DNA of 64,000 bases from Zygnema cylindricum. Taxonomy: Eukaryota; Streptophyta; Zygnematophyceae; Zygnematales; Zygnemataceae. The DNA lies in assembly GCA_037447655.1 (NCBI GenBank), contig JBBHKE010002299.1, positions 45,972 through 109,971 of the forward strand, read 5' to 3'. Shown one piece after another: positions 3,938 through 58,633 of this stretch. The notes beneath the pieces were generated by a model. That model saw nothing but the letters and a program-made list of their open reading frames with translations, was not told the DNA's origin and did not search any database. The translations under genes and the position numbers were made by a program. The first letter of the stretch is position 1. The number at the start of each line of letters is the position of its first letter.

Positions 3938-4737
3938 CTCCCCTAAACCTTTAGACTCTCTCAACCACTAAGTCCACATGCCTCTCTACAAAATTTTAAC
4001 TTAGGTGCAGGTAAAGGCTTAGTCATCAAATCTGCTACCATCATCTCATCGGGCAAATAAGTGAGTTTTCAAATTGTGTTCACCACCTTCTCACTTACAA
4101 AATTCAACTTGATATCAATGTGCTTACTTTTCAAGTGGTGACTTCGGTTAGATGCAATCGCTATAGCTGCGTGGTTGTCACACCACACTATTTGAGGCCC
4201 AAATTGCATAAAATGAAGTTCTTAAAGCAGAGACTTTACCCAAAGTAACTCGTTGACACATGAGTTGGCTGCCATGTATTTAGCCTCCATTGTAGTTTGG
4301 GCTGTGACTTTTTGAAGCTTGCTGCTCCAGTAACATGTTCACTTCCGATCTTGAGAATGAATCCGGTATTGGAGCGGCGGCTTGGCATGTCTTTGTAGCT
4401 CGCATTGCTCCAATTCTGAATCTTGACCTTTTCTCCACCGAGAGCAAGTCGTAGATTCTGTGTCCCTACAAGATACTGAAGCACCCTCTTTGCTGTTTTC
4501 CAATCGAATCTTCTTGGATTGTGTAAACTCCGGCTTAGAGCGCCAACTGCTGCCGCAATATCCGAGCTTGTGCACTCTATGGAGTAGATTAGACTGCCGA
4601 CAATCTGACGATATGGAATGGCAGCCATAGAATTTTCTCCCGTGATTCCAAGGTGTCATCAAAAATGACTCCTCCCTCGGTCTCCATGCCTTCCACCTTT
4701 TGCTTCTATTCCATGGGAGTGGCAATTTATCATGCAC
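3938..4737 (-). pseudogene. Ty1/copia RNase H relic (Cop-H)
   Basis: C-terminal end of a copia Pol on the minus strand, in at least two frames. It starts with the RT/RNase H connection (YRQIVGSLIYSIECTSSDIA), continues with RVLQYLVGTQNLRLALGG and ends with VWCDNHAAIAIASN, SHHLKSKHIDIKLNFV and VADLMTKPLPAPKLKF, the usual copia RNase H finish just before the polypurine tract. The catalytic block normally read as SDASYGD is here SNASYKD, so the first RNase H acid is altered. The rest of Pol is absent at 4737. The sequence is closest to Cop-D in this window. Not functional. Confidence 0.8.
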
Positions 4738-4740
4738 GAT

Positions 4741-5412
4741 TATTTATTGCCTATGGAGGATTTTCGACCCTATTACTACTTCGTTGGATGTGGTTTCGGA
4801 CCAATTTTGGAGTAGGTCAATATTAAGCCGATAGTGCACCAAAAGCCATTTTTGAGAGACGATTATGAACACAAAGATTATTGTTTTGTTCTGTAATCCA
4901 AATCCCTATTGAAGTCTATAAAGAATAGCTAATAGAACTTTATTTCACTTAATTTGGATAATTAAGCTAGAAGATATGTGAGGTCAAAGTAGTGTTTTGG
5001 TGCATATTGTAGAAACTTTGACGTTCAATATCTTTTCAACGGCTAAGTTAAACATGCTGTATTTTAAATTGATACATATAACTTTTTAATACCTTTCTAA
5101 TGAATGTTTGTTTGGATTGTTCAGATAGAAATTATTAGAGATATGACAGTTTCTGTAAACTGCATAATCTAGGTTAATTATTGACTTTTTGAAGTAATGA
5201 TTGCTTTTGCCGGTTGGAAATTAGTACAGGCTGTCCAACCGACTTTTCATAAGTCAAAATTTCTGTCGTTTTCGGGAAATAAACATAGAATGAGTCCTGT
5301 AGTGTCAGATTTTTTTGCTAAGTATTAGTTCTAAGTACTTTAGGTTGTTCGAATTCAATATTGTCTTGGAAAATGAAGGCTCAAAACTGTCTCTCAGTTC
5401 TGTCGCCTTCCA
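4741..5412. other. AT-rich stretch without a gene
   Basis: No supportable coding region. It sits between the copia relic and the first copy of the Gyp-F terminal repeat and may include the U3 part of Gyp-F's 5' LTR. The 3' copy has nothing alike at the matching place, so this cannot be confirmed. Confidence 0.4.
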
Positions 5413-5976
5413 AAACCTGAACTTACCAGAAAAGAGCTATTTTGCCAGCCTCCCTTTTTCCATCTTTGGATCATGTTGGAGTTGCCTTCCAGTTAGTCAA
5501 TTTGTGTCTTGTTTGGCAACAAGGATACTTGGGGCTTTCTGATTGCAATAGTCCTTGGGATTCTAAAAGAGGGAGTTGGACGGATCCCTTATTGGGAGGG
5601 ATCCGTGGGATTACGGGACCTTTGGAGTTTGATCACGGGAGTTTTTCTGTAGCCTCAGTTTGCTCCTCTGGGTGGGTCAAAACCCTTATTAAGTTAACAT
5701 TCGGGGACGCTTGAATGCTACTTATTTTGTGCTTAATTATTTGGAATATGTTTATGCATTGTGGTGAATGGCTTCTGTTTGAGTAGGGTAAGAGGCAATA
5801 TTGTTAAGTCTGCAAAGATTGTTGTCATAACATGCTGTCATAAATGTTATGGCAGTCTAAATTATTTCCATTTTGATTTGATTTGTTACTTCCCAGGATT
5901 AGGGTTATGGTTGACTTTCTTTTGTTTAAAGTTGTTAGCATAGCCCACTGAGCTTGATGATATTAAAGCTCGCAGT
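5413..5976 (+). repeat. Gyp-F 5' terminal repeat (LTR part)
   Basis: Matches 17907-18475 almost throughout, for example gccttccaaaacc at its start and tgatattaaagctcgc at its end, with small indels. As the same sequence flanks the coding region in direct orientation, it is the LTR or its R/U5 part. The left limit is only where similarity to the 3' copy stops. Confidence 0.7.
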
Positions 5977-6125
5977 TAGACAAAACTGAGAGACCGTGCA
6001 TTGTTGTGTTTTATAAGGTGCACTTGTGTCTCTGATTTCAGTTTATTTTTATTTAAAAATGTAAAAAAAAAAATATAGATGGATGTTGGAATAAAAGGGG
6101 AGGTGGGGGGGCACCTCGTAAAGAC
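5977..6125 (+). other. Gyp-F 5' leader
   Basis: Non-coding stretch between the 5' repeat and gag. It contains an A-rich run (6061-6074). No convincing tRNA-complementary primer site was found directly after the repeat. Confidence 0.45.
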
Positions 6126-7918
6126 ATGTTTGGAACCCCGGAAATGGGTGAAACTAGCTCTTCCTCCCGGAGGGCTGGCCAAATTTCTGCAAATTCGGGG
6201 ATGCCATCGGTGCCATCGGTTTCCCTTACAGGTGGGGGACAAGACATTCCAAATCTCCCAAGTCCTCCCCCAATTTCTCCACTTCCGTCCACTCCTCCTA
6301 TTAGGATGTCCACTGAAGATTTCCCCACTCTAGCCGAATCTATCGAGCGAAGACGAGCATCTTGGCCATTTCCACCAACTAGAAGGGCTTCACATTCTCC
6401 TTCTTCTTATTCGGCTGCTTCTACTCACTCTCCTATAATTGGACCAGCTACCCGCTCTAGGCAACCCCACCTTAAGTTCCTGGTTCCACCACCAGATTTA
6501 CATGACACCGTTGGGAGGAACGAGCTTAGGGATTTGTATGGGCAACAATCACGTGATCACAAGGGTCCTAAAGATAGTCATAGAGGAGCTAGGTCGAGAG
6601 CAGATGTGTCAAAATCATGTAGGAGCCAGGGGAGGGAAAAACCAAAGATGTCTCCACTACCACATTCTGATTTTTTGTCTGCCGAATCCGTTACTTTGGG
6701 GAGCGGTTATAGAAGACAAAACCCGAGAGATCTAACACCTAAGATGCCTATATTCGACTTAGGGGATCCCTCAACATTGAATTTTCCCACATCTTCATCA
6801 CCTTCTCCCAATTTTGGCAAGGTTTCGTCGAAAGAAGTGATAATTGCTGATAATCTCTCACCCATGGGGGAGGGAGAAAATCAAGGGCAAAGAGGGGTAG
6901 TTTCGAAATTTTAGTTGTAGAAGATATACAACCTAATTTACCGGTCCAGATTTCGGAGTTTCCTGAGGTAGAGGGAAAAACATAAACACTTAGAGAACCA
7001 CTTTTTAGGGAAGGAGAGGAAGGGGACCGAGAGGATGCACCCGTGGTTGCACAACGAGATAGGAGTCTTTTCTCCAACAAATCGGCAGGTATTGGAGCTA
7101 TAGTAGAGAAGGAGTAAGGCGTTGGTGGAACAGGGCCGAGAGATGACTTAGTTCCAAATCCATCATTGGTATTTACTCCGACCAACAATCCAAAACTATA
7201 CTCCATTCTTTTTCGATACAAGTTTACTAGAGCTCCTGATCCAGGGGAAGCACCTTTGGAAGAGATCCCTGACATAGATAAGATTCCAACATCTATTCCT
7301 TCTCGTTTCGAGCATCTTCTCCGAACTCCTTTTCTATTGATCTACTTTTCCCCCAATTATGCGTTAGGTGGGACACCAACGATTTGACTTAACTGGGATA
7401 ATGTTTGCCATTCAGGCTAAATTGACCATTGGGGTAGAGAGGGTTGTTCCAACGGAGTTAGGAAAGAGTGGGAAGGAAAAGGATGGGATTCGAGAGGTCA
7501 GGAAAATTAGAAGGGAAGTAGGGGAATCGTTAAGACCAACAACTGATCTATTGGGGGTTGGGAGTTTTCCAAGAAGAGACCACAAGGGATTATACAGACT
7601 CATGATACTCTTTCTGGATCTGATGCATTGGTACAGGAAAGGACGGGGACAAAAGCAACACCCATTTCATCACCAAATGGAACAGACAATCGGAGAGTTA
7701 GACTTCGACTAGATCCAGGGGTGTTTTTCAAGGAGAATTTTCAGAAAGTACGAGAAAATTTGGAAATTAGGTTGCAACAACTCTCACCCATACCTATAGC
7801 TATACTTGTTATCACTCCCCAGACAAGAACAAACCTTTCTCCTTCCCCTCCTTCTCCCTCTAGCTCCTCCACCTCGTCTTCTACACCATTTTCACCCATT
7901 TCCCCTCTTCCTCCTTAA
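6126..7918 (+). pseudogene. Gyp-F gag, N-terminal part (broken)
   Basis: The first open stretch (6126-6914, 262 codons) is rich in Ser, Pro and Arg and of low complexity, as expected for a disordered Gag N-terminus. After a frame change it continues through 7166-7387 (PTNNPKLYSILFRYKF) and 7628-7918, which ends in a Ser/Pro run. I recognise no folded domain here. It belongs to gag because it precedes the capsid-like part and because its 6717-7292 segment recurs, inverted, before the 3' repeat. Several stops and frameshifts make it non-functional. Start chosen: ATG at 6126, the first one opening a long frame after the leader. Confidence 0.55.
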
Positions 7919-8243: not shown

Positions 8244-8815
8244 GATTTCTTCATGGGGGATAACTTGAGGTTATTTACAGGGGATGCATCAAGTATTACA
8301 TTTTCTTTGTTTAAACTCTAATGGGAGTCTTTTTATGCCGCTGAAGTAAACAAGTACCGAGGAAGTGTGGTTCTGGCCGACTTAGAGCGAATGTTATTTC
8401 CGATGATGGTAGATAGATTGGTAGGAGGGGCTTTGTCACATTATATGGAGAGGAAGACTAGCTTGAATCCTCCAACTATCAAGATTTGGGATTCGACTTT
8501 AGACAGGTCCCATGTTACTGCGGTGGCTGATCTCGAGGCAACCATCCGTCAGCCTATTTCAGCCACGTACACATTTGGTGATAAGTTACGTGATGAGATA
8601 TTAGCTTAATCCCAGATGAATAGATCTGAGTATGCCGCTATTGCTGCTACGAGGATGGAGGCGAATTCCCAACCTTGTACCACATTACTAGGTATATGGG
8701 AGACTCAGTATACAAAGCGAAATGAGTCTTCTATGAGAGAGTTTCATGAATTTAAACGGAAGCCTGATGAAACTCCTCTCACTATATAGAACCGCCTTGC
8801 TAACCTTTGTGTTCG
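8244..8815 (+). pseudogene. Gyp-F gag, capsid-like part
   Basis: One frame reads MGDNLRLFTGDASSITFSLF, a stop, then an open run beginning YRGSVVLADLERMLFPMM, a pattern like the retrotransposon Gag capsid fold (an FxGD-type start followed by helices). Past a second in-frame stop it continues with MREFHEFKRKPDETPLT and NRLANLC, the usual motif late in that domain. At about 8815 the frame shifts by one to meet the long downstream frame. Capsid would form the virus-like particle. Broken by stops at about 8319, 8607 and 8787. Confidence 0.6.
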
Positions 8816-9424
8816 AATCAGCAAGATATTAAAAATCTGTTGATCATTGCTAAGTTTGAACACGCGTTGTCGAAATCCCTTGACTTGAAGACGACCCGAA
8901 ATTTAGAAAAATGGACAGCTCACAAAGCTCTTAATGCTCTTCCTATCACTGATTTTGATCTTGGTACCGCTGCTCAAAAAAACCATGAACACTTTGCAAA
9001 TCGGGAAGCTCAAGAGAGGACCATGACAGGAAAAGTTTATAAAGAGGAAGCATTTTTTGGATCGAACACTCCTTTTGTCACCAACGCTGAATTGAATGCT
9101 GCCATATCAAGAGCAATGAAAGGGAAGGGAGTAGCAGAGCGGAATCTGCAAGCTCATGGAGCGGATAGACAGATCCTATTCTCATACAACAATTGTGGAG
9201 AGGTTAGACATGGTTGGCAAAAATGTCCGAGACCTTTATCAGTTGAGTTTGCAGCAAAGAGGGCAAAGATTGATGCCAAACAAGATGCTCGGAATGTGGC
9301 ATCTGGAGCTGGTGATCAGAGAAAAGGGAAAGATGGTGGAGGTCGGGACAACAAGAAAGGGGGTGACACCTCAGATGCACAACAGGTGGAATTTCAGATA
9401 ATTCGTCAAATTAGGCTTCCTTAG
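8807..9424 (+). pseudogene. Gyp-F gag C-terminus with first, degenerate zinc knuckle
   Basis: This 205-codon stretch continues the capsid helices (IIAKFEHALSKSLDLKT) and ends in a basic, Gly/Lys-rich tail. Near residue 120 is YNNCGEVRHGWQKC, a zinc knuckle whose first Cys has become Tyr (CCHC consensus C-x2-C-x4-H-x4-C). Such knuckles bind genomic RNA in nucleocapsid. It ends at a TAG (9422-9424) but shares its frame with everything down to 13495, so it is best read as part of one polyprotein. Confidence 0.7.
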
Positions 9425-9451
9425 TTCGACCATCGAAACATTCCTGATGAT

Positions 9452-10192
9452 TTGATGGCAAAGTTCTCTACTCCTAACACGACATGCGAGGCGTGTGGAT
9501 ATCAGAGCCATACGGCGGCTCAATGTTTTCGAAAACACCGAATTTTGAAAGAATTGTTTAAATATGTGAAAACTAATCCTGCTACCGAGAAAGCATTTAT
9601 GAGTATTCCCACTTTTTGTCAAATTTATCTCCTTCGTGGGACATTTCAACCCGAGGGGGAGAGGAACGAGCCCGATCCGGTTTGGGGGGCACAATTCGGA
9701 AATCCAACACCTTTTGAGACGAAATTACAGAAAGAGTTGTTGGAAGTCAAACACAAACTTGATTCATTGATGAGAGAGAACGCAAGCAAGGGTGCTTCTT
9801 CTTCAAAGTCGGCCAGGAAATTAGAGAAAGAGGCACGGTTGGCTTACCTAACTCAGCAAATGGCAGCTTTTCCGACGGAAGATTCATATTCACATGATGA
9901 TCCAGAAGGATGGGAGAGTTCATACCACTCCCGCATGAGTGGATTGTTTGTAGGTGATCCGATTTTGTTTAATGTTGAAATTGGAGAGAGTAGAAGGCAA
10001 TTACGAAAAATCACTAAAGATCAAAGGAAAGACAAGTTACAAGCAAGGACCAGTGATCATGAGAGGAAAGGGCAATCGGACATTCTCTCTTTTACCCCTC
10101 GGCAAGTCTTTTTGAAGACGAAAGTTGGTTTAGGGGTTAAAGCTGATTCTCCACCACCACCTCCACCAAAGGTAACCACTTATAATGATTGA
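9452..10192 (+). pseudogene. Gyp-F nucleocapsid/linker with intact CCHC knuckle
   Basis: Residues 12-25 form a perfect zinc knuckle, CEACGYQSHTAAQC. A charged helical segment follows (FETKLQKELLEVKHKLDSL, then KSARKLEKEARLAYLTQQ) that could form a coiled coil. The tail is basic and ends in a proline run. Same frame as the pieces on either side; the closing TGA (10190-10192) could come from a CGA codon by C-to-T change. A second knuckle with a coiled coil between nucleocapsid and protease is a common gypsy layout. Role: RNA binding and particle assembly, inferred. Confidence 0.7.
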
Positions 10193-10264: not shown

Positions 10265-10990
10265 GTGGATTCTCATTCTACTTCGACATCAGCTCCACCC
10301 ATCCCACCTTCTCGGCCTTCCGCCATGTTAGTGGATCTTCTCATCCCTCACTCTATAGAGTTAGTTCGCACTTTGGCTAACTCCCATCAAATTTCGGATG
10401 AAGAAATCATTTCGGCATTAAGATCTAAGATCACCAGCAGGGTGACATCGACAGATGCTTTTGGAGCACCCATTTCATCTTTCGATTCCAGTTTTGGTAG
10501 CTCGGCGAAGGTTCCAATTACGGATAGGGATTACTCTTCTTTGGCTGTTACATATATTGGTAACTCTTTCGGACACTTTAAGATTAATGGTTTCGGTGGT
10601 TTCCTCCAAACTGTGGTGGATACTGGGGCCCTTCCTAACCTTATCTCTACTAGTGCTTTGGAGAAATTGCCACCCAATTGTAGGCCAAAAGTATTTTACA
10701 CTAAGGTGTGCCTAAGCACGGTTAGTAGTGGTAATCAACCAGTTTTTACTATAATGAAGGGTATGGATATCGAATTTGGAGATGATGCAGGTCAAAAGAT
10801 TTCTATTCGTCTCCCTTTTTTTATGGTGGAGGGCAATCAGTTTGAAATTTTATTAGAAACCCATACATGGTCACTATTGGGAGCCATTGTAGATTTTTGG
10901 AGCGAGCAAATTTGCATTCAGGATTTGTCAACTTCACTCACTTGCCGTGTTTTTGTCCCTCTCACTTTGTGGGGACGTCATCATTCTTAG
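10265..10990 (+). pseudogene. Gyp-F retroviral-type aspartic protease
   Basis: The core is FLQTVVDTGALPNLIS with the catalytic D-T-G, followed by a flap-like hydrophobic stretch and, at the end, FEILLETHTWSLLGAIVDF. In active enzymes that last part usually reads ILG-x-D-h. The family cuts the Gag-Pol polyprotein and works as a dimer. The upstream 80 residues are a Ser/Thr-rich linker. The frame is shared with nucleocapsid upstream and methyltransferase downstream; TAG stops at 10988 and 11102 are the only breaks between protease and methyltransferase. Confidence 0.8.
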
Positions 10991-11149
10991 GAAGCGGCGG
11001 CAGGCTGCTACCCGGTCTACACTAACAATGCTTCCTCAATTCATTCTTCTAAATTTTCCATTGAATCGGAGGATGAATCCACCGACATTGTCCCCCTTAT
11101 ATAGCAATTCCCGATCTCCGCTGAGTGGGAGGAATCCCACAAATGGAGA

Positions 11150-12508
11150 TTGGAGGTAACGGCTTCTTTGAGACGAGGTCACCAAAAAGTGTTAAATGTT
11201 TTGATAGATGAGAAGACATTACCATGTTCGAAAAATGTATCCAAAAGAAGAATCGAATTTCGACATTTTGTTCAGGGGCAGATTTTGACGCCACTTTCTC
11301 GAGAGGTGGTTTATTTGACACCAGAGCCGACAGGGTTAACGGTAGTCTCATTATTTTCTGGCATTAGTACAGATTTAGAAGCTATATTGATGAACGGCCA
11401 CCAGATTAGAAGTTATTGGGCCGTGGAAATTTCATCTTCAGCTCGGGCAACGAGTGAATTTCGATTGTTAGAGCTTCACCGATTGTACCCTCTCCAATTA
11501 CCTGTATTTGCTATTTCACAATCTCATCATCGACTCCCACAAAATATTGACTTAATTACTTCACAAGATATGCGAGATTTGGGGGGGGTAGATTTAGTGA
11601 TAGCTGGTTGGCCTTGTCAAGGATATTCTCAGGTAGGGAAAGGAAGGGGAAATAGTGACACTCGAAGTCGTTTATTCTATCAGATGGTTTTTATCCTCAA
11701 CCTTTTGCAACTACATCACCATAAGCCGTTGGGATACTTGTTGGAAAATGTCTTCCCTGATGCGGATCAACGTAGTAAGGTAGTTACTGCTTGGCAGGAG
11801 ACAATTCACTATTTGGGGGAACCTTTAGTATTTGATGCAGCTCAGATGGGGTCTCGTGCTTTCCGTCTTCGCTCATATTGGACTAATCTTGCTCCTCTTC
11901 CACTATTAAAGGCCGCCGTGGGATTACAAAAGCGTCCGCCAAACCTCACCATCGATCAGATTTTAGACAAAGGCCGTACACCTACTCCTGTCACATCTAC
12001 ATCTCGACAACTATTTTTTGACTGCAACAAATCTGGTCAACCAAGAAACGCACTTCCCACTCTGGTTTCATTTCCTCGGAGCCATGCTTATCGTTTAGGT
12101 TCCCCTGGCATGATCTTTGACACTAATACAAAGAAATGGGATGTGCCCAATATCAATGAACGAGAACGAGCCATGGGTTTTCGCACCAATGCTACTGCCG
12201 CTCCCAATCTCTCCCTTGACACTCGTTGCCGTTTAATTGGTCAAGCTATAGATTTACACCCATTTCAGTGGTTAGTTGGTCTTACACTATCTCATGGTCC
12301 TTTGCATTCTCACCAGCATCGCACTTCATTTTTACAAGCTCCAGCTCGCATAGCTATGCAAGTCACACTAGCGCTTGGGGGGAGGAGAGATAGAAAAAAT
12401 CATCAAAAGATCCAACAACAGAAAACCAAGGAGGGGGGACCAAAAGAACGAGAGAAGCAAGTGCATAAGGTAGAGGATGTTTTGTGGTTGTCTAGAAGGG
12501 TGTTATAG
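11150..12508 (+). CDS. C5-cytosine DNA methyltransferase domain captured in gypsy Pol
   Basis: A 452-codon uninterrupted frame, the longest in the window. Motif order is the standard, non-permuted one: motif I LTVVSLFSGIST (residues 63-74, SAM binding), AVEIS (91-95, motif II acid), motif IV VIAGWPCQGYS (150-160, catalytic Cys156 in P-C-Q), motif VI YLLENV (196-201, the ENV Glu), motif VIII RAFRLRSYW (236-244), a target-recognition region, then NERERAMGF (336-344, motif IX-X side) and RLIGQAID (361-368, motif X). Every key residue is present. The family transfers methyl from SAM to C5 of cytosine. The order excludes the rearranged DRM type. It has the same frame as protease and RT and a single TAG before RT, so it is probably a polyprotein domain. 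The ATG at 11150 is only the first Met after a stop. Basic C-terminal tail (residues 400-440). Confidence 0.88.
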   Translation: MEVTASLRRGHQKVLNVLIDEKTLPCSKNVSKRRIEFRHFVQGQILTPLSREVVYLTPEPTGLTVVSLFSGISTDLEAILMNGHQIRSYWAVEISSSARATSEFRLLELHRLYPLQLPVFAISQSHHRLPQNIDLITSQDMRDLGGVDLVIAGWPCQGYSQVGKGRGNSDTRSRLFYQMVFILNLLQLHHHKPLGYLLENVFPDADQRSKVVTAWQETIHYLGEPLVFDAAQMGSRAFRLRSYWTNLAPLPLLKAAVGLQKRPPNLTIDQILDKGRTPTPVTSTSRQLFFDCNKSGQPRNALPTLVSFPRSHAYRLGSPGMIFDTNTKKWDVPNINERERAMGFRTNATAAPNLSLDTRCRLIGQAIDLHPFQWLVGLTLSHGPLHSHQHRTSFLQAPARIAMQVTLALGGRRDRKNHQKIQQQKTKEGGPKEREKQVHKVEDVLWLSRRVL

Positions 12509-12529
12509 GAAGGAGATAGAGCAAAGGGG

Positions 12530-13495
12530 TTGGGGGGGGACGAGTTTGATCTGTCCCGGTGGACGAGGCCACCGGAGAGTTTTGCAGCTATAGAACCGGG
12601 AAAGTTGGATTGGATTATTGGAGAACGGTTAGAGGAGAGCCAAAAGTCTAGAATTGTGGATCTATTGGGAAGGAATAGGGATGTGTTTTCGTGGGCTGAT
12701 ACAGATGTTGGGATTTACAAGGGCACACCATTTAGGATTGACTTAGTGGACGAATCAACGACAGTTTGGCAAAAACAATATCCTTTGAGCCACTCGGAGA
12801 AAGAATTTGTGAAAGAGAAAGTCCAAAGTTTGGTTGATTCAGGATTAGTACAGGAAAGCACTGGTCTTCATGGGTTTGCCTCCCCAACTGTACTGCCTCC
12901 GAAGAAAGATTCTACAAGGAAGACTGTAGACTTCCGAATGTGTGGAGACTATCGAATGTTAAATGCGGCCACTATATCGGACAAGTATCCTATGCCCACT
13001 CTTGAAGAAATATTTGATGCCTTGGTTGGAGCAAATATATATTCTACCTTGGATTTGAAGCACGGATTTCACCAAGTGCCTATGGAACCTAAGCATTGAG
13101 AGAGGAAAGCATTCTGGGCAGGTAAGAGATTATACGAGTGGTTTAATATGCTTTTTGGATTGAAAAATGTACCCGCAAAGTTTCAACGAGTAATGGATGA
13201 AGCTTTACGAGGGATTGAATGTGCTCGGTGTTATATTGACGACGTGATCATTTTATCTAACAATTTGGAGGATCACCTCCTTCATTTACAAATGGTAATT
13301 GATGCTCTGAGAGCGGCACGCTTAAAGTGTCTTCCAGGTAAAGGTATATTTTGGGTAGACAAAATTTTGTATTTGGGACATGAGGTTACCACTAGGATTG
13401 TAGGTCCACATATGGTCAAAGTCGCCGCCTTAGATGCGTTGCCAGCTCCTACAAATGTATCTTCACCCCGCAGATTTAGTTTCGTGCGTATGTGA
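12530..13495 (+). pseudogene. Gyp-F reverse transcriptase, N-terminal two thirds
   Basis: Ty3/gypsy RT: KLDWIIGERL linker, VDSGLVQESTG, SPTVLPPKKD, FRMCGDYRMLNAATISDKYP (fingers), STLDLKHGFHQVPM (first catalytic Asp) and, after an in-frame TGA at 13097, MLFGLKNVPAKFQRVMDEAL and CYIDDVIILS (YIDD, catalytic Asp pair), then GKGIFWVDKILYLGHEV. The TGA stands where relatives have Arg (KHRERKAF pattern), which fits CGA to TGA. The polymerase copies element RNA into DNA. The frame continues from the methyltransferase with one TAG between. Coding is broken off at about 13478 by an inserted segment. Confidence 0.88.
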
Positions 13496-15030
13496 AATTT
13501 GATGCACACACGACGTTTCGTGCGTATATATTTTACATGATGTACTGTGGAGTTTTGAACATTTTGCGGTTCGGCGGAATTAAATGTACGAGTAAAATTA
13601 ATGGAGCAATTGAGTGGCGCGAAATGTGAGAGGAAATGGACGGCGGATTGCGAAGCGATCCGACGTGAGATAATCGACGAAGATAAAATGGTACGTCGCA
13701 CGTAAAGTTCATAATGCGACACGTGGGATATATAAAAAGGACGCCGCCGGTACATAGAATCTTTTTTGGGACATGTGTACTTATTTTTGGCAGGCGCATT
13801 TATGACGAGGAACAAAAGTGCGGTACGGACAATTTCGGATGGTTTGACGAGGTTTCGACAAGTGGATTTTTATGACCACGCGGCGCGACATCAAGGGTGC
13901 CGATTAAGAGCGACGGACGGCGGATATAGGCCGCCGAGATTTTTTATGTAGTGGTGACGCGAAATCGCGTCAATCACACGATATTTATTTTTGGACTTTC
14001 CGGATTGTTTGACAAAATTTGAGGAGTGTCGTTGAGTGACTCATCATGAGTCTGCATAAGATTTTGTGAGATTTTGTGTACCTGTAAATTTTTGGAAAGT
14101 ACGGTTCGACAAGTGATTCGTGGTACACGTGGAAGGCGGACGGCGTCCGCCGATATTTTTAAGGGATCTCATTATCTTTAATGACGTATTATTAGGTGGA
14201 CCGTACATATGCGATGTCGGTTCACTACGTGGATTTATCTACGAGTTCATAAGCGAGTTGTCGCGTATGACGCGTATTTTGCGGATGCGTCGGTATAAAT
14301 ATTTGAAACAACATTGTCTTGTCTTACGTGAATTAATATTTTAGTGTTGATTATTACAGTTTCTATTTAGGTGGTCAATTAGGGTTTCGGTATTTTAATC
14401 TGTGTGTATGCAGTGTCGTACTTGCAGACAAGTGTACTCTTATGATTGGTCGACTCTCAGGTGTACATTTACAGTTATGATTATTTGTCGTAATAGGTTT
14501 TCATGATGTAATACTACTTAGTGGAAGTTACGTTGGCTATTTTGACATGTAGCGATTCATTGACAGCTCACAAGTGTACATATATAGGAATGAGCTTTGT
14601 TAGGAATTAATCATCAATGCTTAGCATGAAAAGTAGGGACTGAAGATGTAGACTTTTAGGGTTGCCGATTAGGTCATGCACTTTGAATGATATAAAAATT
14701 ATTTGATTATACTTTTTGTTTATGTGTGATGCATTTGTCTGTTATTATTTATTTATGTTATTTTATATATGTTTGATATGCATTGTTTATGCATTAGTCC
14801 TAGGGTTTGTTTATGTCCATTATTCCATCAAACCTTAGATGTTGTCATAGGGTTTATTTATGTTGATTATTCCATGAAACCCTAGTTGTTGTTTATTGCA
14901 TCAGTGTATGCATGTATGTTAAATGGAGGATGTATTTCATATGATTTTTCGTCGACCTATTTTTGCTTAGTTTCTTGCATGATAGTTTGGGTGGCTTCTG
15001 CGGTCTATTTTAGACCAAAGAACAGCAGAT
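13478..15030. mobile_element. Uncharacterised 1.55-kb insertion in the Gyp-F RT
   Basis: It splits the RT between the thumb (APTNVSSPR) and its continuation (VSSLRTF). The flanks repeat imperfectly: 13456-13477 and 15030-15051 agree at about 18 of 22 bases, a long target duplication. The insert has no convincing ORF. It holds GC-rich palindromes (cggcggatataggccgccg at 13918-13936; cggacggcgtccgccg near 14138) and TATA-like tatataaaaa (13729-13738). Near its right edge is a hairpin, ggtctattttagacc (15002-15016). No poly-A tail and no TG/CA LTR ends are seen. The long duplication argues against a solo LTR and for a non-LTR-type or other unclassified insertion. Confidence 0.5.
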
Positions 15031-15045
15031 GTTTCTTCACTCCGC

Positions 15046-15526
15046 ACATTTTGAAGGGTTAGCCAACTATTATAGACGATTTGTTCCAGAGTTTAGCAGC
15101 CGAACTCAGGCCCTCAATTTACTCTTAAGGAAAGATCAAGAGTGATAATGGAAGGAAGAACAAGAAGAGGCATTCCAATTTTTGAAGAATGCGCTAAAAG
15201 AAAGTCCGATTCTTCGTATGCTAGACCATTCTCGACCATTTATTCTTTACGTTGATTGGAGTTGATTCGGATTAGGGGCCGTATCAGCTCAGCTTGATGA
15301 TTCAGGAGCCGAATACGTGGTGGCCTATGCAAGCCGGAGCAACAAAAAGGCGGAGGCCTCTTATAGTAGCTATCATGGGGAGCTTCTGGTAGCTGTTTGG
15401 GTCATCAAACACTTCCGACCATATCTTTATGGCGTTCATTTCACCCTTATCACCGATCACCAACCTTTGAAATGGATAATGGAGAATAGTAAGCTTACAG
15501 GGAAACTTGCTCGATGGGCTTAGATA
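15046..15526 (+). pseudogene. Gyp-F RT thumb and RNase H
   Basis: Resumes the RT after the insertion: LANYYRRFVPEFSSR, then FQFLKNALKESPILRM (connection) and RPFILYVDWS, the start of RNase H. The open part 15317-15523 reads VVAYASRSNKKAEASYSSYH, GELLVAVWVIKHFRPYLYG and TLITDHQPLKWIM, with the TDH and DHQPL motifs typical of gypsy RNase H. In-frame stops at about 15143, 15263 and 15521 break it. RNase H removes the RNA strand during reverse transcription. The Gyp-G copy has the same TLITDHQPLKWIMENSKLTG block. Confidence 0.85.
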
Positions 15527-16537
15527 TTGCAAGAGTATGATTATGAGATAATTCACCGAGCCGATGAGACCTATGGTAATGCAGAAGGTCTTAACAGAAA
15601 CCCCGATCCCTCTTCTGTTGATGTTACAAGAGCAAGGTACGTTGAGGATCCTATTTTGGGGGTTGGAATCGTTATGGCAGCAACATTATTCTCTTTGCTT
15701 CGTAGAAAAAAGGGGGAACTTTTTGTATTAAGGGCAGAGGTGGAAGAGCAAGCCCCATTGTCAGCTGACACGGTTGACATTTTTGATGATTTAGACACCT
15801 TGAAATCCAATCAGCAAGGGTCAATTTTACCACATTTAGAGGGGATCCAGAAAGCTAAAGTTCTACAGAGGATGTCAGCTTACACTTGGGATAAGGGGGT
15901 TCTCTTAATGGTTTGGCCGGATGGCGTCAAGAAGGTAGTTCCACCACCTGGTGATCAAGAAACGTTAGTCATCAACCTCCATGAGCAATGTGGTCATTTC
16001 GGTCAGAAGCATACCGTTTCTTTGGTTGCAGCATCTTATAGGTGGCATGGTATTCGAGCACAAGTGAATCGAGTTATTCAAGCATGCTTAACATGCGATC
16101 GAGTGAAAGTGGCATTTGACAAGAAAAGTGGTACCGAATTACATTCTCTTTCCATTCGGGGAATGTTTTATCGTTGGTCATTTGACTTGCTAGGGCCCCT
16201 TCCGACTAGTCGACGAGGAAATCGCTTCGTGCTTGTGATGATAGAGCATTTTTCTAAGTGGATTGAGCTCGTGGTGCTACCTCGGAAAGAGTCTAAGTTT
16301 GTGGGCGATGCCTTTTTACAAAGAGTGCTTGCTCAGTTTGGGGCCCCCGCGGAAGTTTTAACCGATCAGGGTTCCAAAGTTGCTGGGGATTTTTCGACTT
16401 TGATGGAGCAATGTTTGATTGATCACCGAATTACTAGTAGAGATCATCCTCAAGCTGATGGGTTAGCCAAACGTTGTGTCCAAACAGTCAAGAGAGCACT
16501 CCGAAAATATGCGCTCGAGAAGGATGTGGGGGATTAG
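15527..16537 (+). pseudogene. Gyp-F integrase with catalytic Glu lost
   Basis: After a linker with NRNPDPSS, the zinc-binding HHCC module reads NLHEQCGHFGQKHT (two His) and ACLTCDRVK (two Cys). The catalytic core has RWSFDLLGPLP (Asp 1) and EVLTDQGSKVAGDF (Asp 2). The third acid should follow in GLAERC, as in the Gyp-G copy, but here the codon at 16469-16471 is AAA, giving GLAKRC. GAA to AAA is one G-to-A change. Integrase inserts the cDNA into host DNA and needs all three acids, so this copy is inactive. Stops after YALEKDVGD (16535) separate it from its C-terminal domain. Confidence 0.88.
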
Positions 16538-16619: not shown

Positions 16620-17243
16620 TGTTTGGCAGGCATCTTATTCTCCCAGGATCTGCCTCGGCCCAAGCCACTGTCTTACCGGAGATGGATAGTAAAGGGACAG
16701 TAGAAAGACTAATTACCGCTCGAGCGTAGGTTTTTCATCGAGAGATTCCAATAGCCATGGGCAATTTGCAAGCGGCCCAACACAGAGATCAACTTTGGTA
16801 TTCCCACCATTGGAGTGGCTCTTACGTTCCTGGACAACGACGTTTTTAGCCACGGGATTTTGTTTATCGGATGCGGTAGAAAAAGGATACTTTGGATATT
16901 TTTTGCAGGCCGGATTATTTTGAAGGTGGTTGTGGTTTCCCCTAAAGGAGTGTTCACATTGGAAGGGGCTGACGGCAAAAGAGTCAAAGATAATCAAATT
17001 AATGTGGCTCCTTGCCACCTTCGAGGGCTCGAGGACGAGCCAACATTACATTTCACTTATTTTCCCTCTCCTCCCATTTGTTCTAATTCTCCCTTGTGTG
17101 CCCCTGGTTACAAAACTACAGACATATTATTATGTGAGGCATGCACACGAGCTTGGCATTCTTCCTGTTTACCTAAGGATTAAGCAGGTTGGGACCAACT
17201 TGGCAGACCTTGGTTTTGTGGGGAGTGTGAAATGGGTGTTTGA
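16620..17243 (+). pseudogene. Gyp-F integrase C-terminal domain ending in a PHD finger
   Basis: The decayed C-terminal domain is seen as MGNLQAAQHRDQLWYS, FVYRM and, further on, NQINVAPCHLRGLEDEPTLH, matching Gyp-G block by block. From 17079 comes a PHD zinc finger: ICSNSPLC, then ILLCEACTRAWHSSCLPKD and, after an in-frame TAA (17181), RPWFCGECEMGV with a stop at 17243. The Cys4-His-Cys3 order and the W-F-C-x2-C finish are diagnostic. The first Cys pair is spaced wider than usual (C-x5-C). PHD fingers read histone H3 tails; here one stands where chromoviruses have a chromodomain, so a role in targeting integration is inferred. The segment is broken by several stops and frame changes. Confidence 0.8.
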
Positions 17244-17290: not shown

Positions 17291-17334
17291 ATGATTCAGG
17301 AGTGAACCGGACAGTCCCAACATTTGGGAAGGGG

Positions 17335-17904
17335 TTGGTAACTTTTCTATGTCAAGGATCTCTTCCAAAGGTGCTTCCCTTGGATCAAGAGCTCTAACAA
17401 ACCTGTTCCGAAAAAGAATGGAGTCTAGTTCCAGATTGTTGGTCGGAGTAAGTACAAATGATGGATTTGGAACTAAGTCATCTCTCGGCCCTGTTCCACC
17501 TACGCCTAACTCCTCCTCCAATATAGCTCCAATACATGCTGATTTGTTGGAGAAAAGACTGCAATCTCGCTATGCAACCATGGGTGCATCCTCTCGGTCC
17601 CCTTCCTCTCTTTCCCTAAAATGTGGTTCTCTAGGTGTTTTGTTTTTCCCTCTATCTCAAGAAACTCCGAAATCTGGACCGGTAAATTAGGTTGTATATC
17701 TTCTACAACTAATTTCGAAACTACCCCTCTTTGCTCTTGATTTTCTCCCTCCCCCATGGGTGAGAGATTATCAGCAATTATCCCGTCTTTCGACGAAACC
17801 CTGCCAAAATTGGGAGAAGGTGATGAAGATGTGGGAAAATTCAATGTTGAGGGATCCCCTAGGTCCAATATAGGCCTCCTAGCTGTTAGATCTCTCGGGT
17901 TTTG
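17335..17904 (-). repeat. Inverted copy of Gyp-F gag
   Basis: On the minus strand this reads the same protein as gag 6717-7292, e.g. DLGDPSTLNFPTSSSPSPNF, LSPMGEGENQ and PTNNLELDSILFRNRF. Identity looks near 88-90 percent by eye. It lies about 45 bp after the polypurine tract and directly before the 3' terminal repeat, so it sits where U3 of the 3' LTR should be. A read-through transcript would carry sense and antisense gag. It may be a rearrangement scar or a retained feature. Confidence 0.85.
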
Positions 17905-17906
17905 CC

Positions 17907-18475
17907 TTCCAAAACCTTAACTTATCTGAAAAGAGCTATTTTGCCAGCCTCTCTTTTGCCATCTTTGGATCATGTTGGAGTTGCCTTCCAGTTAGTCAAT
18001 TTGTGTCTTGTTTGGCAACAAGGATACTTGGGGCTTTCTGATTGCAATAATCCTTGAGATTCTAAAGGAGGGAGTTGGACGGATTCGTTATTGGGAGGGA
18101 TCCGTGGGGTTTCGGGACCTTTGGAGTCTGATCACGGGAGTTTTTCCGTAGCCTCAGTTTGCTCCTCTGGGTGGGTCAAAACCTTTATAAAGTTAGCATT
18201 CGGGGACGCTTGAATGTTACTTATTTTGTGCTTAATTCTTTGGAATATGTTTATGTTTTGTGGTGAATGGCTTTTGTTTGAGTAGGGTAGGAGGCAATAT
18301 TGTTAAGCCTGCAGAGATCACTGTCATAAATGTTATGGCAGTCTAAATTATTTCCATTTTGATTTGATTTGTTAATTCCCAAGATTAGGGTTATGGTTGA
18401 CTTTCTTTTGTTTAAAATTGTGAGCCTAGCCCACTGAGCTTGATGATATTAAAGCTCGCGGTTAGAATTTGACAA
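17907..18475 (+). repeat. Gyp-F 3' terminal repeat (LTR part)
   Basis: Direct copy of 5413-5976. Similarity begins at gccttccaaaacc, immediately after the inverted gag copy, and ends near cgcggttaga. The copies differ by scattered substitutions and short indels, so the insertion is not recent. Confidence 0.7.
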
Positions 18476-19832: not shown

Positions 19833-20742
19833 CAACGCTAGGATATATGGAGTTTGACAAATATATAAATAGTTACACACAGACTAATTTGTTTAACAGG
19901 AAATAGATACGTAGTTCATAGATACAATTTTAGATACGTACGGAGTGCAATTTTATGTATTGTATAAAACGGATACCACGCATTTGTTTGGACCACGAAA
20001 CAAATACCGCGTGTCTATTTTCAACAACTAGAAATATATTCGGTTTTTATTAGAGGGCCACGATAGGCGCCGCGATCACGGAATATGTACTTTTGGTGTT
20101 TTACGGTCATCGCCACGTCAAGGGACACGTGGCGCATCAACATTGGATTGCGGCAACTCCAAAGATTACGCGAACAAATCATGTTATGACATGTGTCAAC
20201 ATTTCGGCCATGTAGTATAATAGCCTTACAGAAAGTACACTGGCACCTGTACTTTTCTATACGACTGAATAATGTTAATGGTGCCGTACATCAGTAGATA
20301 GAGTTTAGAGAGAGATAGGACTTAGAAAATTTAGTAGGTAGCCACCTCTCTATGAGAGATCTCCAGTAGAACAGGTCAACTTTGACCCTCTATAACTTAC
20401 TGCTCAGGGGAGCAAATTCAGAGATTTTTTTTGCTTCGGACTCAAGGGAGTCAAGTCTTCACAAGGGTGTATTCGGTCAGAGTGTTTGCCAGCCAGGGTG
20501 TTTGCATTTCTAAGGGAAAGTCAAAATGGGGAATGTTATCTAAAAGTCATATTCTAACTTTTTACTTTATGGTGTAACTAAGCACACAAAAAGTTTTATT
20601 TCACAGGGGTGAAGCTATAATGGGGTTGTGATTGTCAAGGGGGCAATCATTTGGGTTTTCAATCAACTTGAATTCGGCACTATCTAGATAAGCTATTTAT
20701 GAGTTGCCTACTTTGAGGACCAATGGAGGTCTTAGAGTTTCA

Positions 20743-20755
20743 GGTTATGGACCCA
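20743..20755 (+). other. Primer-binding site, initiator tRNA-Met anticodon arm (Cop-E)
   Basis: GGTTATGGACCCA right after the LTR, one mismatch from GGTTATGGGCCCA, which is complementary to the anticodon stem-loop of eukaryotic initiator tRNA-Met. The gag ATG (20747) lies inside it. Confidence 0.75.
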
Positions 20756-21964
20756 CCATCTAGGGTGCCTATGTTTGATGGAACAATCTTCACTTATTGG
20801 GAGTTCACAATGGAGGGATTACTTTTCGAAAAGCACTTATGAGGAACTGTTTCGGGACAAGTGAGGTGTCCGCCCCCAGGCTTTAGAGGAACTCACTATG
20901 AAGAATCATCTGGGACTTTCCAGAAAACCAAGTGGAGTAAGGATGCAACGGAAGGTGAAGGGAAAATTATTACCAGGGAAAGGGGAAAAGGGGAGAAGGA
21001 TAAAGGGACACCTATGGTGAGGGGAGCTAGGCTCTAGGCTACGGTTGCACTTGTGAGGATTATAAAAGAACAAAAAACTGAAGAAAATGACATAACAATT
21101 TGGGAATATAAAAATACTATAGCAAAACATCTCATACTTAGATATGTGTCTAAGTCCATAGCTATCACTCTTTTAAATCTAACTAAGTCTTCGGAAATCT
21201 GGGAAACAATTATTCAAATTTATAAGAGTGAGACTATACAGTGGCAGTAGTTAGTAAAACAAGAGATAGAGGCCTATGTTTTTAAAGGCGGTAGCATGAT
21301 AGAGTTTTACAATGATATTGCTGCATTATATTTTGGGCTTGCTACTGCAGGATATGTTGAATATGCGGTGAGAAAGATTAACACACTAATCATGAAACTT
21401 CCACATGACAACGAAGACATAATTTAACGTATGCAGGAATACAGTGCTCCTCATGGACTTGGAGCATTATCATGGGAATGATTCTTGTGAGGGAAAGCAC
21501 CTTGGAGCTTCATAAGGGAAGTGACACGGTGAATGCACTGATAGATGGTGGTGACTGGCGGAAGCATGGTAAGAGGAATGATGGTGATTGGCGGAAGCGT
21601 GATGAGAGGAATGATGGTGACTCGCGGAAGCATGATGAGAGGAAGAAAGACAAAGGTAAACCATACCGAAAATTTGGTGGAAAGAGAGGGAGAGGAAAAA
21701 AAAGTGGAGCTTTCAAACAAAGGGGTTTGCTTCTTTTGTAGGGAACCTGTTCACTATTTGGAGGAATGCCCTTGTTTCGAAAAACTTAGAAGTTGGAACG
21801 TGGATGAGGAGGAACAAGGGGAAGAGGAGAAAAAGGATGAAGATATTTTGGAGCTTTTCCGCATCGGTATTATGGGGAAGAGAGAAAAGCACACAAAAAT
21901 TCCACGGAAGCAACAGTGTGATTTTGGAGGTATAAAGGGAATTAAAGAGGGAGGAGAAACTTGA
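20747..21964 (+). pseudogene. Cop-E gag with zinc knuckle
   Basis: Starts at the ATG within the primer site (MDPPSRVPMFDGT), the usual opening of copia-type Gag. Later come FTYWEFTMEGLLFEKHL, NTIAKHLILRYVSKSIAITL and INTLIMKLP, the UBN2-type Gag pattern. A hydrophilic stretch (about 21545-21650) has three tandem GDWRKH/R-type repeats. The knuckle CFFCREPVHYLEEC (21732 on) fits C-x2-C-x4-H-x4-C. An acidic tail follows. Stops and frame changes (near 20838, 21037, 21248, 21425) break it. Gag would package the RNA of the element. Confidence 0.8.
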
Positions 21965-31268: not shown

Positions 31269-31479
31269 GTGAAAAAGGGATTGCACATTCAGAGAGATCC
31301 ACGATGAGGGAGACATACCAGAATCTGCCCATATTCCTATACACTTTGAGGAGACAGAGGAGGAGGAGACGCAACCGACTTCCATGGATAGGGGAGCGGA
31401 TGAGACGGTGAGGAGGAACCCGAGTCTTCCCTCCATCCCAGCATCGGACTTTGAGGGAGGACAAAATAGCTGCAAAAGG

Positions 31480-32330
31480 CTGCAGGAAATAGGCCACTCA
31501 CAAAGTAACTAAATTGTCTCACCGTGATGAGCCTTTGTTAAACTCACAGGCAATAGATAGGCCGGAGAAAGACAGATGGGTTAGAGCCATAAATGATGAG
31601 ATGGCATCCATCTTGGAAGTAAGTAATTGGGAATTGGTGGACTGTCCTTTGAACAGAAAATCGATTGGGTACAAATTGGTGTTTAAACTGAAATTGAACC
31701 CAGATAATACCATTGAAAGATATAAGGTTCGGTTGGTAGGAAAGGGGTTCACCCAAAAAGAGGGGATAGATTATGAGGAGACCTTTGCTCTTGTACTTCG
31801 GTTCCCATTAGTAGGGATTCTCATTAGTCTGGCTGCAGCGGAAGACATTGAAATACACCAGATGGATATAAGGACCGCCTTCCTCAATGGTGAGTTAGAG
31901 GAAAAAACTTAAAACGACAACCAGAAGGGTTTGTAGAGGAAGGAGATGAGAGCAAAGTCTGCAAACAAATAAAGTCCTTATATGGACTGAAGCACGCTAA
32001 CAGACAATGGAATAAGAAGTTAAATGAGTTTCTCACCGGTCTGGTATATATTCAGATCAGTTTTGACCATTCTATTTCTATGTTTGAGGATGAGAATGGT
32101 GTTATTGTCATTGCAATTTATGTGGATGATTTGCTAGTATTAAGCAAGTCTATGGAAAAGATCTTAGAAGCAGATTTGACATGAAGGATTTAGGGGAGGC
32201 AAAATACATGTTGGGAAATCAAATAAAAAGAGAGAGAGAGAAAAGGATTATCAGACTTACTCAGAAAGAAGCTATAGGAAATATGCTTGAAAAATTCCAA
32301 ATGGAAAAGGCAAACATTTGAACCACTCCC
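31480..32330 (+). pseudogene. Cop-C reverse transcriptase
   Basis: Copia RT: RWVRAINDEMASILEVSNWE, FKLKLNPDNTIERYKVRLVG, KGFTQKEGIDYEETFA, IHQMDIRTAFLNGELEE (first catalytic Asp), then, after a stop and frame change near 31910, SLYGLKHANRQWNKKLNEF and VIAIYVDDLLVLSKSM (YVDD) and YMLGNQIKR. The RT is nearly full length but split by a stop near 31910 and further frame changes, one directly after YVDDLL. Confidence 0.88.
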
Positions 32331-35144: not shown

Positions 35145-35830
35145 TTACTCACTCAAACCAATAGAATCTCTAAAATATTGCAACTTAGGAGCTGGAAGAG
35201 CTTTAGTTAACATATCAACCACCATCTTTTCATCCGGTAAATAACTCATTTTTTTCACTCTTGCAAGCATATATTCTCTTACAAAGTGTTGACTGACATC
35301 CATATGTTTGCTCTTAAAGTGATGACTAGGGTTAGAGGCAATAGCAATGGCTGCTTGGTTGTCACACCAGATAACTTGAGGACCGGTTTGCATATACCCA
35401 AGTTCCTGCAAAGTGGCATTAACCCATAGAAGTTCTTTGAGGGCAAAAAAGGCTGCCATGTATTACGACTCTATTGTAGACTGAGCCGTGACCTTCTCTA
35501 ATTTGCTGCTCCAGCAGCAAGTTCCATTCCCAATCTTCAGAACGAAACCGGTTGTATATTTCCGGCTTGGCATATCTCCATAGCTGGCATCGCTCCTAGT
35601 TTGCAGTTTTACCTCTCCCCCTCCGAGTATAAGCTTGAGGTTTCGGGTACCTGCCACGTATCTCAGAACCCTCTTTGCTGCTTCCTAATCTGCTCTTTTA
35701 GGATTCTGAAGGCTTCTACTTAATACTCCTACAACTGCAGCGATGTCAGGCCTCGTACAATTCATAAAATTAATAAGACTTCCCACTACTTGTCTGTACG
35801 GCTTTGTAGCCATAAACTCGGCCCCCCCCT
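35145..35830 (-). pseudogene. Cop-D RNase H
   Basis: Minus strand. Begins with KPYRQVVGSLINFMNCTRPD and RVLRYVAGTRNLKLILGG, then RSDASYGDMPSRK (first acid) and CCWSSKLEKVTAQSTIES with a stop where the block should read EAEYMA. It resumes with ALKELLWVNATLQELGYM, VIWCDNQAAIAIASNPSHH, KSKHMDVSQHFV and MVVDMLTKALPAPKLQYF. Catalytic acids are largely kept; two in-frame stops break it. Confidence 0.88.
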
Positions 35831-35899
35831 GATTCTAAGCTTCCACTAACCATTATGCCTGAGTCTGATTCACCCCCCTTCAACTTATGCTTCACTTCC

Positions 35900-36703
35900 A
35901 TGGGAGTTACAGATCCCTTCACATCCTTCATCTCAAATTTTCAAGCATGTTCCCTATAGCTTCTTTCTGGGTTAGCATAATCAATCTGTTATTTCTATCC
36001 CTTTCAACCTGTATGCCCAGGATATATTTAGCCTTACCAAGGAACTTAGACCTCAAAGCTGCTTTAATACGATTTATTTCATCTATGGATTTGCTTATTA
36101 GTAAATGATCATCCACATATACAGCGATATAAAGAATCCCATCTTCCCCTTGTAAGACATATACTGAATGATCTGAACTGATTCTTTTTAATCCTAGATT
36201 AGTTAGAAATTCATCTAGCTTTAGATTCCATTGTCTGGGGGCTTGTTTCAGCCCATCAGAGATTTTTTTTGTTTACAGACTGACTTTTCTTTTCTTTTTT
36301 CTTCATACATTTCAAGCTGCTGCATATAAATAGTTTCTTCTAACTCTCTATGCAAAAAGGTTGTCTTAACATCCATCTGATGAATTTCCATGTTAACTAT
36401 AACAGCTAAACTCAACAAAGTTATGACAGTAGGAAATCTGACGACTGGGGAGAAGGTTTCCTCTAAGTCAGTACCTTCTTTCTGGTTGTACCCTTTGGCC
36501 ACAAGTTTGTCCTTATATCTTTCGATAGTGTTGTCCTGATTCAGTTTTACTTTGAAGACCCACTTGCTTCCAATGGCTTTCCTCCCCGAAGGCAAGTCCA
36601 CCAGCTCCCACGTCTGTGCCTCCATAATTGATTTCATCTCATTGTTGGCCGCCTCAATCCAGTGGTTTCTCTCCGGTGATAAGAAGGCCTCTTTGATGGT
36701 CAT
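35900..36703 (-). pseudogene. Cop-D reverse transcriptase
   Basis: Minus strand: HWIEAANNEMKSIMEAQTWE, SKWVFKVKLNQDNTIERYK, KGYNQKEGTDLEETFSPVV, IHQMDVKTTFLHRELEETI (Asp) and, after a frameshift near 36250, an AVYVDDHLLISKS block (YVDD) and KAKYILGIQVERDRNN. The stretch between carries a lysine/glutamate-rich slip (EEKRKEKSVCKQKK) that marks the frame break. Confidence 0.88.
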
Positions 36704-36717
36704 AGACTCCCCTGATG

Positions 36718-57929: not shown

Positions 57930-58633
57930 CTCAGTCCCGCCCTTTTTGTCAAAGGAGGCCTTAACTCGATCACAGGAAGAGCAAGTCTGTACAATTCGGT
58001 TGACTAGGGCCCGTTACCCGTGCCACCAATAAGAACCTGTAACTGGGGAAGTGGTCCGCTTCTGCCCGAAGTGTCCTCATTGCTTGTGGAGATTAGTAAT
58101 CAGAGTTTCTCGATTTGATGGAGGAGGAACCACTTTCCTCGTACCGTTTGACCATTTCCGGAGGAGAACACCTCGGTCCCATTCATACGCCGCCATCCGG
58201 GTCTGAACTTGGGACAATTAAAATCAAACCAAATGGGGAAGAGGGGATTCCTGCTGGATGGATTGGAGAGCCTCGGAGTCGTTCCAGATGTTTTTTCGTC
58301 CGGCTCATATGGGTGCCTGCCCCTCAACATCTACTCCAAAAGTGGACAATGCCCCCCCAGATGGAGGAAGCCAAATTAAGGCGGAGGATGCTCGAATAAG
58401 TCCCAAACTGATTTCGGGGTCTTTGTCATTCTGAGCCTCTGTGGAATCGAGTGTGGAAGGATCAGGGTTTCGGCTAAGTCCGTCGGCATGCCCATGGATT
58501 TCCCCTGCCCGGTGAACAATGCTGAAATCATATTCCTGCAGGATAAGCACCCATCTGGCGAGTTTGCCGGTCAACTTACTATTCTCCATGATCCATTTCA
58601 GGGGTTGGTGGTCGGTGATCAGTGTGAAACGGA
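57930..58633 (-). pseudogene. Gyp-G RNase H end and integrase zinc-binding region
   Basis: Minus strand. RNase H: RFTLITDHQPLKWIMENSKL, GKLARWVLILQEYDFSIVHR and GEIHGHADGLSRNPDPST, with no stop. A linker like that of Gyp-F (VDVEGQAPI) follows. The zinc-binding region (about 58090-57940) is decayed: NLHKQ, a stop, GHFGQKRTTS and CSSCDRVKASFDKKGG. RNase H begins exactly at the junction with Cop-B gag (58633), so everything before it is missing. Confidence 0.85.

Follow-up and report, generated by a model that had tools for sequence, protein, structure and literature searches.

DNA methylation is normally directed at transposons, and the question raised by the stretch analysed here (64,000 nucleotides of Zygnema cylindricum contig JBBHKE010002299.1, forward-strand positions 45,972 to 109,971; hereafter the window) is what a DNA-methylating enzyme would be doing inside one of them. 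The window carries a copy of a Ty3/Gypsy long terminal repeat (LTR) retrotransposon, and a preliminary description of the locus had placed a full-length C5-cytosine methyltransferase (MTase) inside its Pol polyprotein, between the protease (PR) and the reverse transcriptase (RT). That placement was borne out, both by the translated MTase frame, which matches PF00145 with an E-value of 9.7e-13 (48.7 bits, the cut-off being 22), and by 20 further copies fetched from the source genome, 19 of which show PR, MTase and RT in this order (L026 shows no PR). The domain order PR-RT-RNase H-integrase, with an integrase of the rve/H2C2 type, is that of Ty3/Gypsy LTR retrotransposons. The coordinates given in the preliminary description were correct, as were the motifs (SLFSGIS at ~11348-11368, PCQ at 11612-11620, ENV at 11744-11752, RxR at 11864-11872 and a motif X-like RLIGQ at ~12230) and the frame shared with PR and RT; the frame is not continuous, however, with stops at 10988 and 11102 on the PR side of the MTase, at 12506 on its RT side and at 13097 inside the RT. 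Additional in-frame stops lie at 9422, at 10190 and after 15000. The window copy is dead, because in-frame stops flank the MTase, ~1.6 kb breaks Pol and the 3' side is rearranged. The range given in the preliminary description ends at this break, and the PHD finger near 17079-17228 went unmentioned there.

The source genome (353 Mb in 2689 contigs) was searched with the window MTase, with PF00145 and with the RT (91 of 1871 first-look candidates, 123 of 782 candidates and 150 hits among 2581 candidates scored, respectively). The window MTase has at least 95 matches, which excludes a chance origin; these comprise one group of ~63-93% identity and one of 45-54%, and the PF00145 search pointed to a third group, in which two copies share 38% identity with the window MTase. 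The 20 fetched copies, which were mapped with pieces of the window, were taken from the better-scoring MTase matches and are thus biased towards well-kept copies. Further copies with the same module order, for which the preliminary description had proposed to search, are present. Six of the scored RT hits that had no MTase match listed were also taken, and in all six an MTase sequence lies upstream (L033 keeps the C-terminal third only, and N masks part of L038). Among the 20 fetched copies and these six hits, no Gypsy copy without an MTase was found at the RT distance of the window, distant Gypsy lineages lying outside this comparison; copies of the family lacking the domain would, by the preliminary description, have shown a one-off insertion. 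One copy of the third clade (L031) holds a single open frame of 2395 aa that begins ~700 residues before the protease motif and runs through MTase, RT, RNase H and integrase to a PHD finger; no gag part was recognised in it by similarity. A frame of 5743 aa on contig C961 was rejected as an artefact of N. In trees of the MTase (22 sequences) and the RT (21 sequences), both without an outgroup, clade 1 forms one group with support of 1.0, whereas clade 3 is a lone long branch. Joint descent of MTase and RT would be consistent with these trees; what speaks against it is the lack of an outgroup, the support of only 0.78 for clade 1 in the RNase H tree, and the place of clade 3, which sits next to clade 1 in the MTase tree and next to L025 within clade 2 in the RT tree, a difference that may be a long-branch effect. 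The family is large and old, and the window copy is neither contamination nor a one-off.

The kinship of the enzyme was assessed with a profile built from 11 MTase pieces, one of them a short C-terminal fragment. Against the PDB, this profile matched DNMT3A (8e-19) and DNMT3B (7e-17) best, followed by DRM2 (8e-7), HaeIII (1.2e-6), HhaI (1.5e-6) and DNMT2 (6e-6), and no DNMT1 chain reached 0.01. The DNMT3 family is thus the closest among C5 methyltransferases with solved structures, and the motif order is canonical and unpermuted; the match to plant DRM2 is much weaker, and DRM enzymes are described as permuted in the available text of PMC5890265. These comparisons identify the MTase as a DNMT3-like, putative enzyme. 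A 116-aa piece of DNMT3A is 28-42% identical to the genome copies; unlike DNMT3A and DNMT3B, the element has no ADD or PWWP match in Pfam, and carries a PHD finger at the far end of Pol instead. When the DNMT3A piece was used to look for a host gene closer to DNMT3, none stood out above the retroelement copies among the 150 of 481 candidates scored, a search that short exons could escape. The preliminary description had held that grouping with bacterial enzymes would mark the MTase as a contaminant, and no such grouping emerged (HaeIII and HhaI at ~1e-6 versus DNMT3A at 8e-19). The NCBIfam model dcm, of a bacterial superfamily, does match the window MTase at 2e-12, yet its 47 bits fall short of the cut-off of 101, and an origin as a one-off insertion, a capture artefact or a bacterial contaminant has a negligible probability in view of the number of genomic matches, the recurring module order and the lead of DNMT3 over bacterial enzymes. 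Structure prediction of the window MTase without an alignment gave a confidence score (pLDDT) of 33, too low for use.

The catalytic residues are conserved in two of the three clades: of the 17 clade 1 and clade 2 MTases compared, all have WPCQ and 16 have ENV (L023 has DNV). The motif IV string AGWPCQG has 171 exact matches in the genome, and its glutamate form AGWECQG has 76, with GAA and GAG both used (a motif count, clade 3 membership having been read in six sequences); the reversed controls had 0 matches each. The median pairwise ratio of nonsynonymous to synonymous substitution (dN/dS) of the MTase was 0.22 in clade 1 (5 pairs, 4 copies) and 0.25 in clade 2 (35 pairs), close to the values for PR (0.12 and 0.24, respectively), and in clade 2 the RT, RNase H and integrase ranged from 0.14 to 0.16, under the value of the MTase. 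Judged by these ratios the MTase appears to be under purifying selection, which would be compatible with a working role. It is hardly in doubt that the present element is a Gypsy of a known kind with a long-kept, selected MTase module.

MTase-bearing retroelements of charophytes, which the preliminary description had mentioned, are indeed published. KnitGypsy-Dnmt3 of Klebsormidium nitens (de Mendoza et al. 2018, PMC5890265), by its description in the available text, resembles the present element in the LTR Gypsy domain set, in an unpermuted Dnmt3-type MTase inside Pol, in A-coding-B-A-B repeats and in purifying selection; it differs in number, K. nitens being described there as having fewer copies than Symbiodinium, whereas 247 exact motif sites were counted here in 353 Mb. 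A Dnmt3-type MTase inside a Gypsy Pol, the mark of the KnitGypsy-Dnmt3 kind, was found here as well. The same text gives the A-coding-B-A-B layout for DIRS elements and the same repeats for KnitGypsy-Dnmt3. In the present family this layout was found in one clade 2 copy (C1374:20607-37084; L029, L017, L030), an element with an rve-type integrase; the window copy, with its rearranged 3' end, does not show it, and L027 and L022 show B-A-B and B-A, respectively, at the 3' side. The two A repeats on C1374 are 98% alike and the element ends are TGTC...GACA; no target duplication was seen by eye. The inner B/A junction of this copy carries both ends with two bases between them, and so would resemble a joined-end circle; a further B copy, preceded by 3.7 kb, lies outside the scheme. 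SymbioDIRS-Dnmt3, as presented in the same paper, shares the Dnmt3 domain within a retroelement Pol and the A-coding-B-A-B repeats, but is a DIRS element with a tyrosine recombinase, in contrast to the RNase H and rve integrase found here. In its available text, PMC12344493 names Copia and DIRS as the retrotransposon families that carry DNMT3 and cites the 2018 paper, where the family is given as Gypsy.

A PHD finger follows the integrase at the end of Pol in copies of all three clades (window, L009, L017 and L031). PF00628, with a cut-off of 24 bits, matched L031 at 2e-11, L009 at 2e-6 and the clade 2 copy L017 at 9e-5, the last with 22.8 bits and hence under the cut-off. The finger was seen in 14 of the 20 fetched copies, the other six being truncated, cut by the end of the locus or without a match. 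The clade 3 finger is nearest in the PDB to those of PHF12, KDM5, BAZ2B and BHC80, several of which read unmodified H3K4. Chromoviruses also bear a chromatin-reader-like domain in Pol, located C-terminally; theirs is a chromodomain and not a PHD finger, and the MTase is an addition of the present element. The chromodomain is named as an accessory domain in the available text of PMC6338049. No account of a PHD finger together with an MTase in a Gypsy element was found in the accessible parts of the literature searched, and "PHD" occurs 0 times in the main text of PMC5890265 as available.

What emerges is a large family that keeps its own MTase, and a likely chromatin reader, across three diverged groups. 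On balance we lean towards an account that joins a mechanism to the anatomy seen in this large Ty3/Gypsy family, of which the window holds a dead copy: a DNMT3-type MTase flanked by PR and RT, with a PHD finger downstream of the integrase. The MTase would be made as part of Gag-Pol, and would either stay with the RT or be cut out near it; it would then methylate the element's own new DNA, either the cDNA in the particle or a fresh insertion, the latter after docking of the integrase-PHD end on nucleosomes. A new copy would thus arrive already methylated, and might look like self DNA or be silenced at once. The PHD finger would read the H3 tail and steer integration or the enzyme; in the window copy this function has been lost, with host methylation and deamination wearing the family away. 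Methylation of its own new DNA, as suggested in the preliminary description, seems the likeliest role of the MTase. According to the available text of PMC5890265, the SymbioDIRS-Dnmt3 enzymes carry out de novo methylation of CG in yeast, and self-methylation of cDNA is proposed there.

Several points weigh against this account. The activity of the MTase is predicted, and the KnitGypsy-Dnmt3 domain gave no methylation in yeast, a result deemed inconclusive since human DNMT3B failed too (PMC5890265, available text). Fetching the better-scoring copies favours low dN/dS; the clade 1 value rises to 0.37 (13 pairs) once two copies with a frame shift along a middle stretch, L013 and L014, are included, and the pair of the window copy and L010 alone gives 0.51. 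Clade 3 has glutamate in place of the motif IV proline in all six sequences read (L031, L032 and L042-L045), so that catalysis in this clade is doubtful; to our knowledge this proline is near-universal in C5 methyltransferases. L045 carries a stop where the tryptophan of motif IV stands. Lastly, nothing in the C-to-T scars points to CG self-methylation, because they lie at CHG as much as at CG. Of the 67 changes specific to the window copy relative to six clade 1 copies, 42 are C>T or G>A, at rates of 14/152 for CHG, 7/142 for CG and 21/733 for CHH (CHG versus CHH, p = 0.0009; CHG versus CG, p = 0.18, and CG versus CHH, p = 0.20, both not significant); in clade 2 (12 of 14 copies) the rates are 157/5383 for CHG, 96/3672 for CG and 180/13792 for CHH, CHG and CG each being ~2x CHH.

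The glutamate form also bears on whether the MTase is kept for a job other than DNA methylation, be it RNA methylation, nucleic-acid binding or a structural part in the particle, with the PHD finger alone handling chromatin. The substitution is uniform in the clade 3 sequences read, the AGWECQG sites use both glutamate codons, and several PF00145 matches at such sites lie in long open frames, such as that of L031; RNA methylation was also raised for SymbioLINE by the authors of PMC5890265, in its available text. The intact motifs of clades 1 and 2, the 171 AGWPCQG matches and the fact that the nearest family is one of DNA methyltransferases argue the other way, and a role outside DNA methylation is judged improbable. 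Somewhat less improbable, and still more doubtful than probable, is that a DNMT3-type writer and an H3-tail reader in one polyprotein set the chromatin state of the element's own insertions, echoing the ADD-plus-catalytic design of animal DNMT3, with one clade recoded from PC to EC and kept so at the 76 exact AGWECQG sites; the EC doublet, if true, would give C5 methyltransferases a new variant of the active site. No mention of the ECQ form was found in the available text of PMC5890265, and neither the ECQ clade nor three clades at such copy number had an account in the accessible parts of the literature searched. What a transposon gains from methylation becomes testable by comparison of PCQ with ECQ copies and with sister elements lacking the domain in one genome.

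Returning to the account in which the element methylates its own new DNA, the scars fit host plant-type methylation of silenced copies, and are silent on the MTase of the element. Among the Lhc proteins that the genome encodes, one (L040) scores 316-322 bits against three plant chains, labelled chlorophyll a-b binding protein by their depositors, versus at most ~281 bits against other LHCII chains, Chlamydomonas-type included; its score against the two-domain LHCI-2 chain is 376 bits summed, with a best domain of 208. The three plant chains are presumably Lhcb3, a protein that marks streptophytes, and the host is green, probably a streptophyte. A DNMT1 RFD domain is present in the host genome, and CG marks could therefore be maintained. 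This, together with the roughly twofold decay of CHG and CG relative to CHH in the 12 clade 2 copies, would agree with an MTase that helps the host or tames the element by marking new copies for CHG/CG silencing, so that their cost falls and tamed elements persist, as proposed in the available text of PMC5890265; any silenced plant element is expected to bear the same scars, however, and we regard taming as unlikely.

Features of the window copy (window positions) and, in the last row, repeats of the C1374 copy (contig positions)
Feature	Position	Strand	Basis or remark
5' A repeat (LTR-like)	4730..5980	+	start in common with relatives' 3' A repeat
Gag N-terminal region, broken by stops	6303..7341	+	tblastn matches in L009, L013, L014; stops in translation
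Gag C-terminal region, two CCHC-like zinc knuckles	8804..10189	+	read off translation; matches in relatives
Aspartic protease, DTGA at 10619	10493..10987	+	motif, in frame of MTase; same region of relatives matches Asp_protease_2
C5-cytosine methyltransferase, DNMT3 type (putative)	11105..12508	+	467 codons without stop; PF00145; DNMT3A best PDB match
Gypsy reverse transcriptase, YIDD ~13232, stop at 13097	12509..13492	+	RVT_1 on two pieces
~1.6 kb breaking Pol between RT and RNase H	13480..15020	.	frame loss and spacing in relatives; edges approximate
RNase H	15149..15520	+	RT_RNaseH E 1e-26, also RT_RNaseH_2
Integrase (H2C2 and rve)	15524..16537	+	E 4e-12 and 2e-9
Integrase C-terminal piece, presumably GPY/F-like	16905..17030	+	stretch conserved in relatives
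PHD finger, C-terminal end of Pol, one stop inside	17079..17228	+	PF00628 E 1e-5 with X at stop
Inverted copy of gag 6705-7290	17334..17916	-	92%; rearranged 3' side of window copy
Second copy of 3' part of A, direct	17904..18466	+	92%; Kimura two-parameter distance (K2P) 0.061, unsafe as a date
A and B repeats of clade 2 copy on C1374	A 20607-21797; B 31308-31632; B 35349-35680; A 35677-36866; B 36868-37084

The remaining parts of the window copy were read largely by comparison with its relatives. Positions 4730-5435 match L009 just downstream of its PHD finger and 4730-6555 are colinear with L013; the end of the 5' A repeat, at ~5980, is placed provisionally from the edge of a shared piece. 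The zinc knuckles of Gag lie at 9194-9226, with the first cysteine lost, and at 9488-9529, in the frame of the MTase, and the C-terminal Gag region had no convincing Pfam match. The protease piece of the window likewise had no Pfam match, and Asp_protease_2 matched the same region of L017 (7e-5) and L031 (3.5e-4) just under the Pfam cut-off. RVT_1, with a cut-off of 29.6 bits, matched the first RT piece, from 12509, at 7.6e-6 (26.2 bits, under the cut-off) and the second, at 13100-13492, at 1.1e-14. The gap between this second piece and RNase H measures 190-220 bp in all 18 of the 20 fetched copies that show both, versus ~1770 bp in the window. L009 and L014 show a B-to-A junction where the window copy has the inverted gag piece. 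An alternative genetic code was ruled out for the window copy, its in-frame stops being of all three kinds. The A repeats were likewise rejected as plain LTRs of this copy, and their K2P distance is unsafe as a date, because the 3' A is joined to the inverted gag piece and a like piece lies within the PR of L011. Scans with Rfam and for tRNAs found nothing, and no relative of the element was found among viral contigs.

A ~577-bp stretch recurs with identical ends at three places, the A repeat (window 5403-5979), the rearranged 3' side (17904-18466) and the interior of the L011 protease (5936-6499), and may represent an independent mobile unit. Elsewhere in the window, a second Gypsy integrase fragment lies on the minus strand at 56991-58634; over the integrase it shares 61% identity with the first, and other repeats have taken the place of its upstream part. 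Several broken Copia elements (RVT_2, Pol_BBD, SH3_retrovirus), ~72-80% alike, occupy both strands between 30000 and 52500, nested in other repeats.

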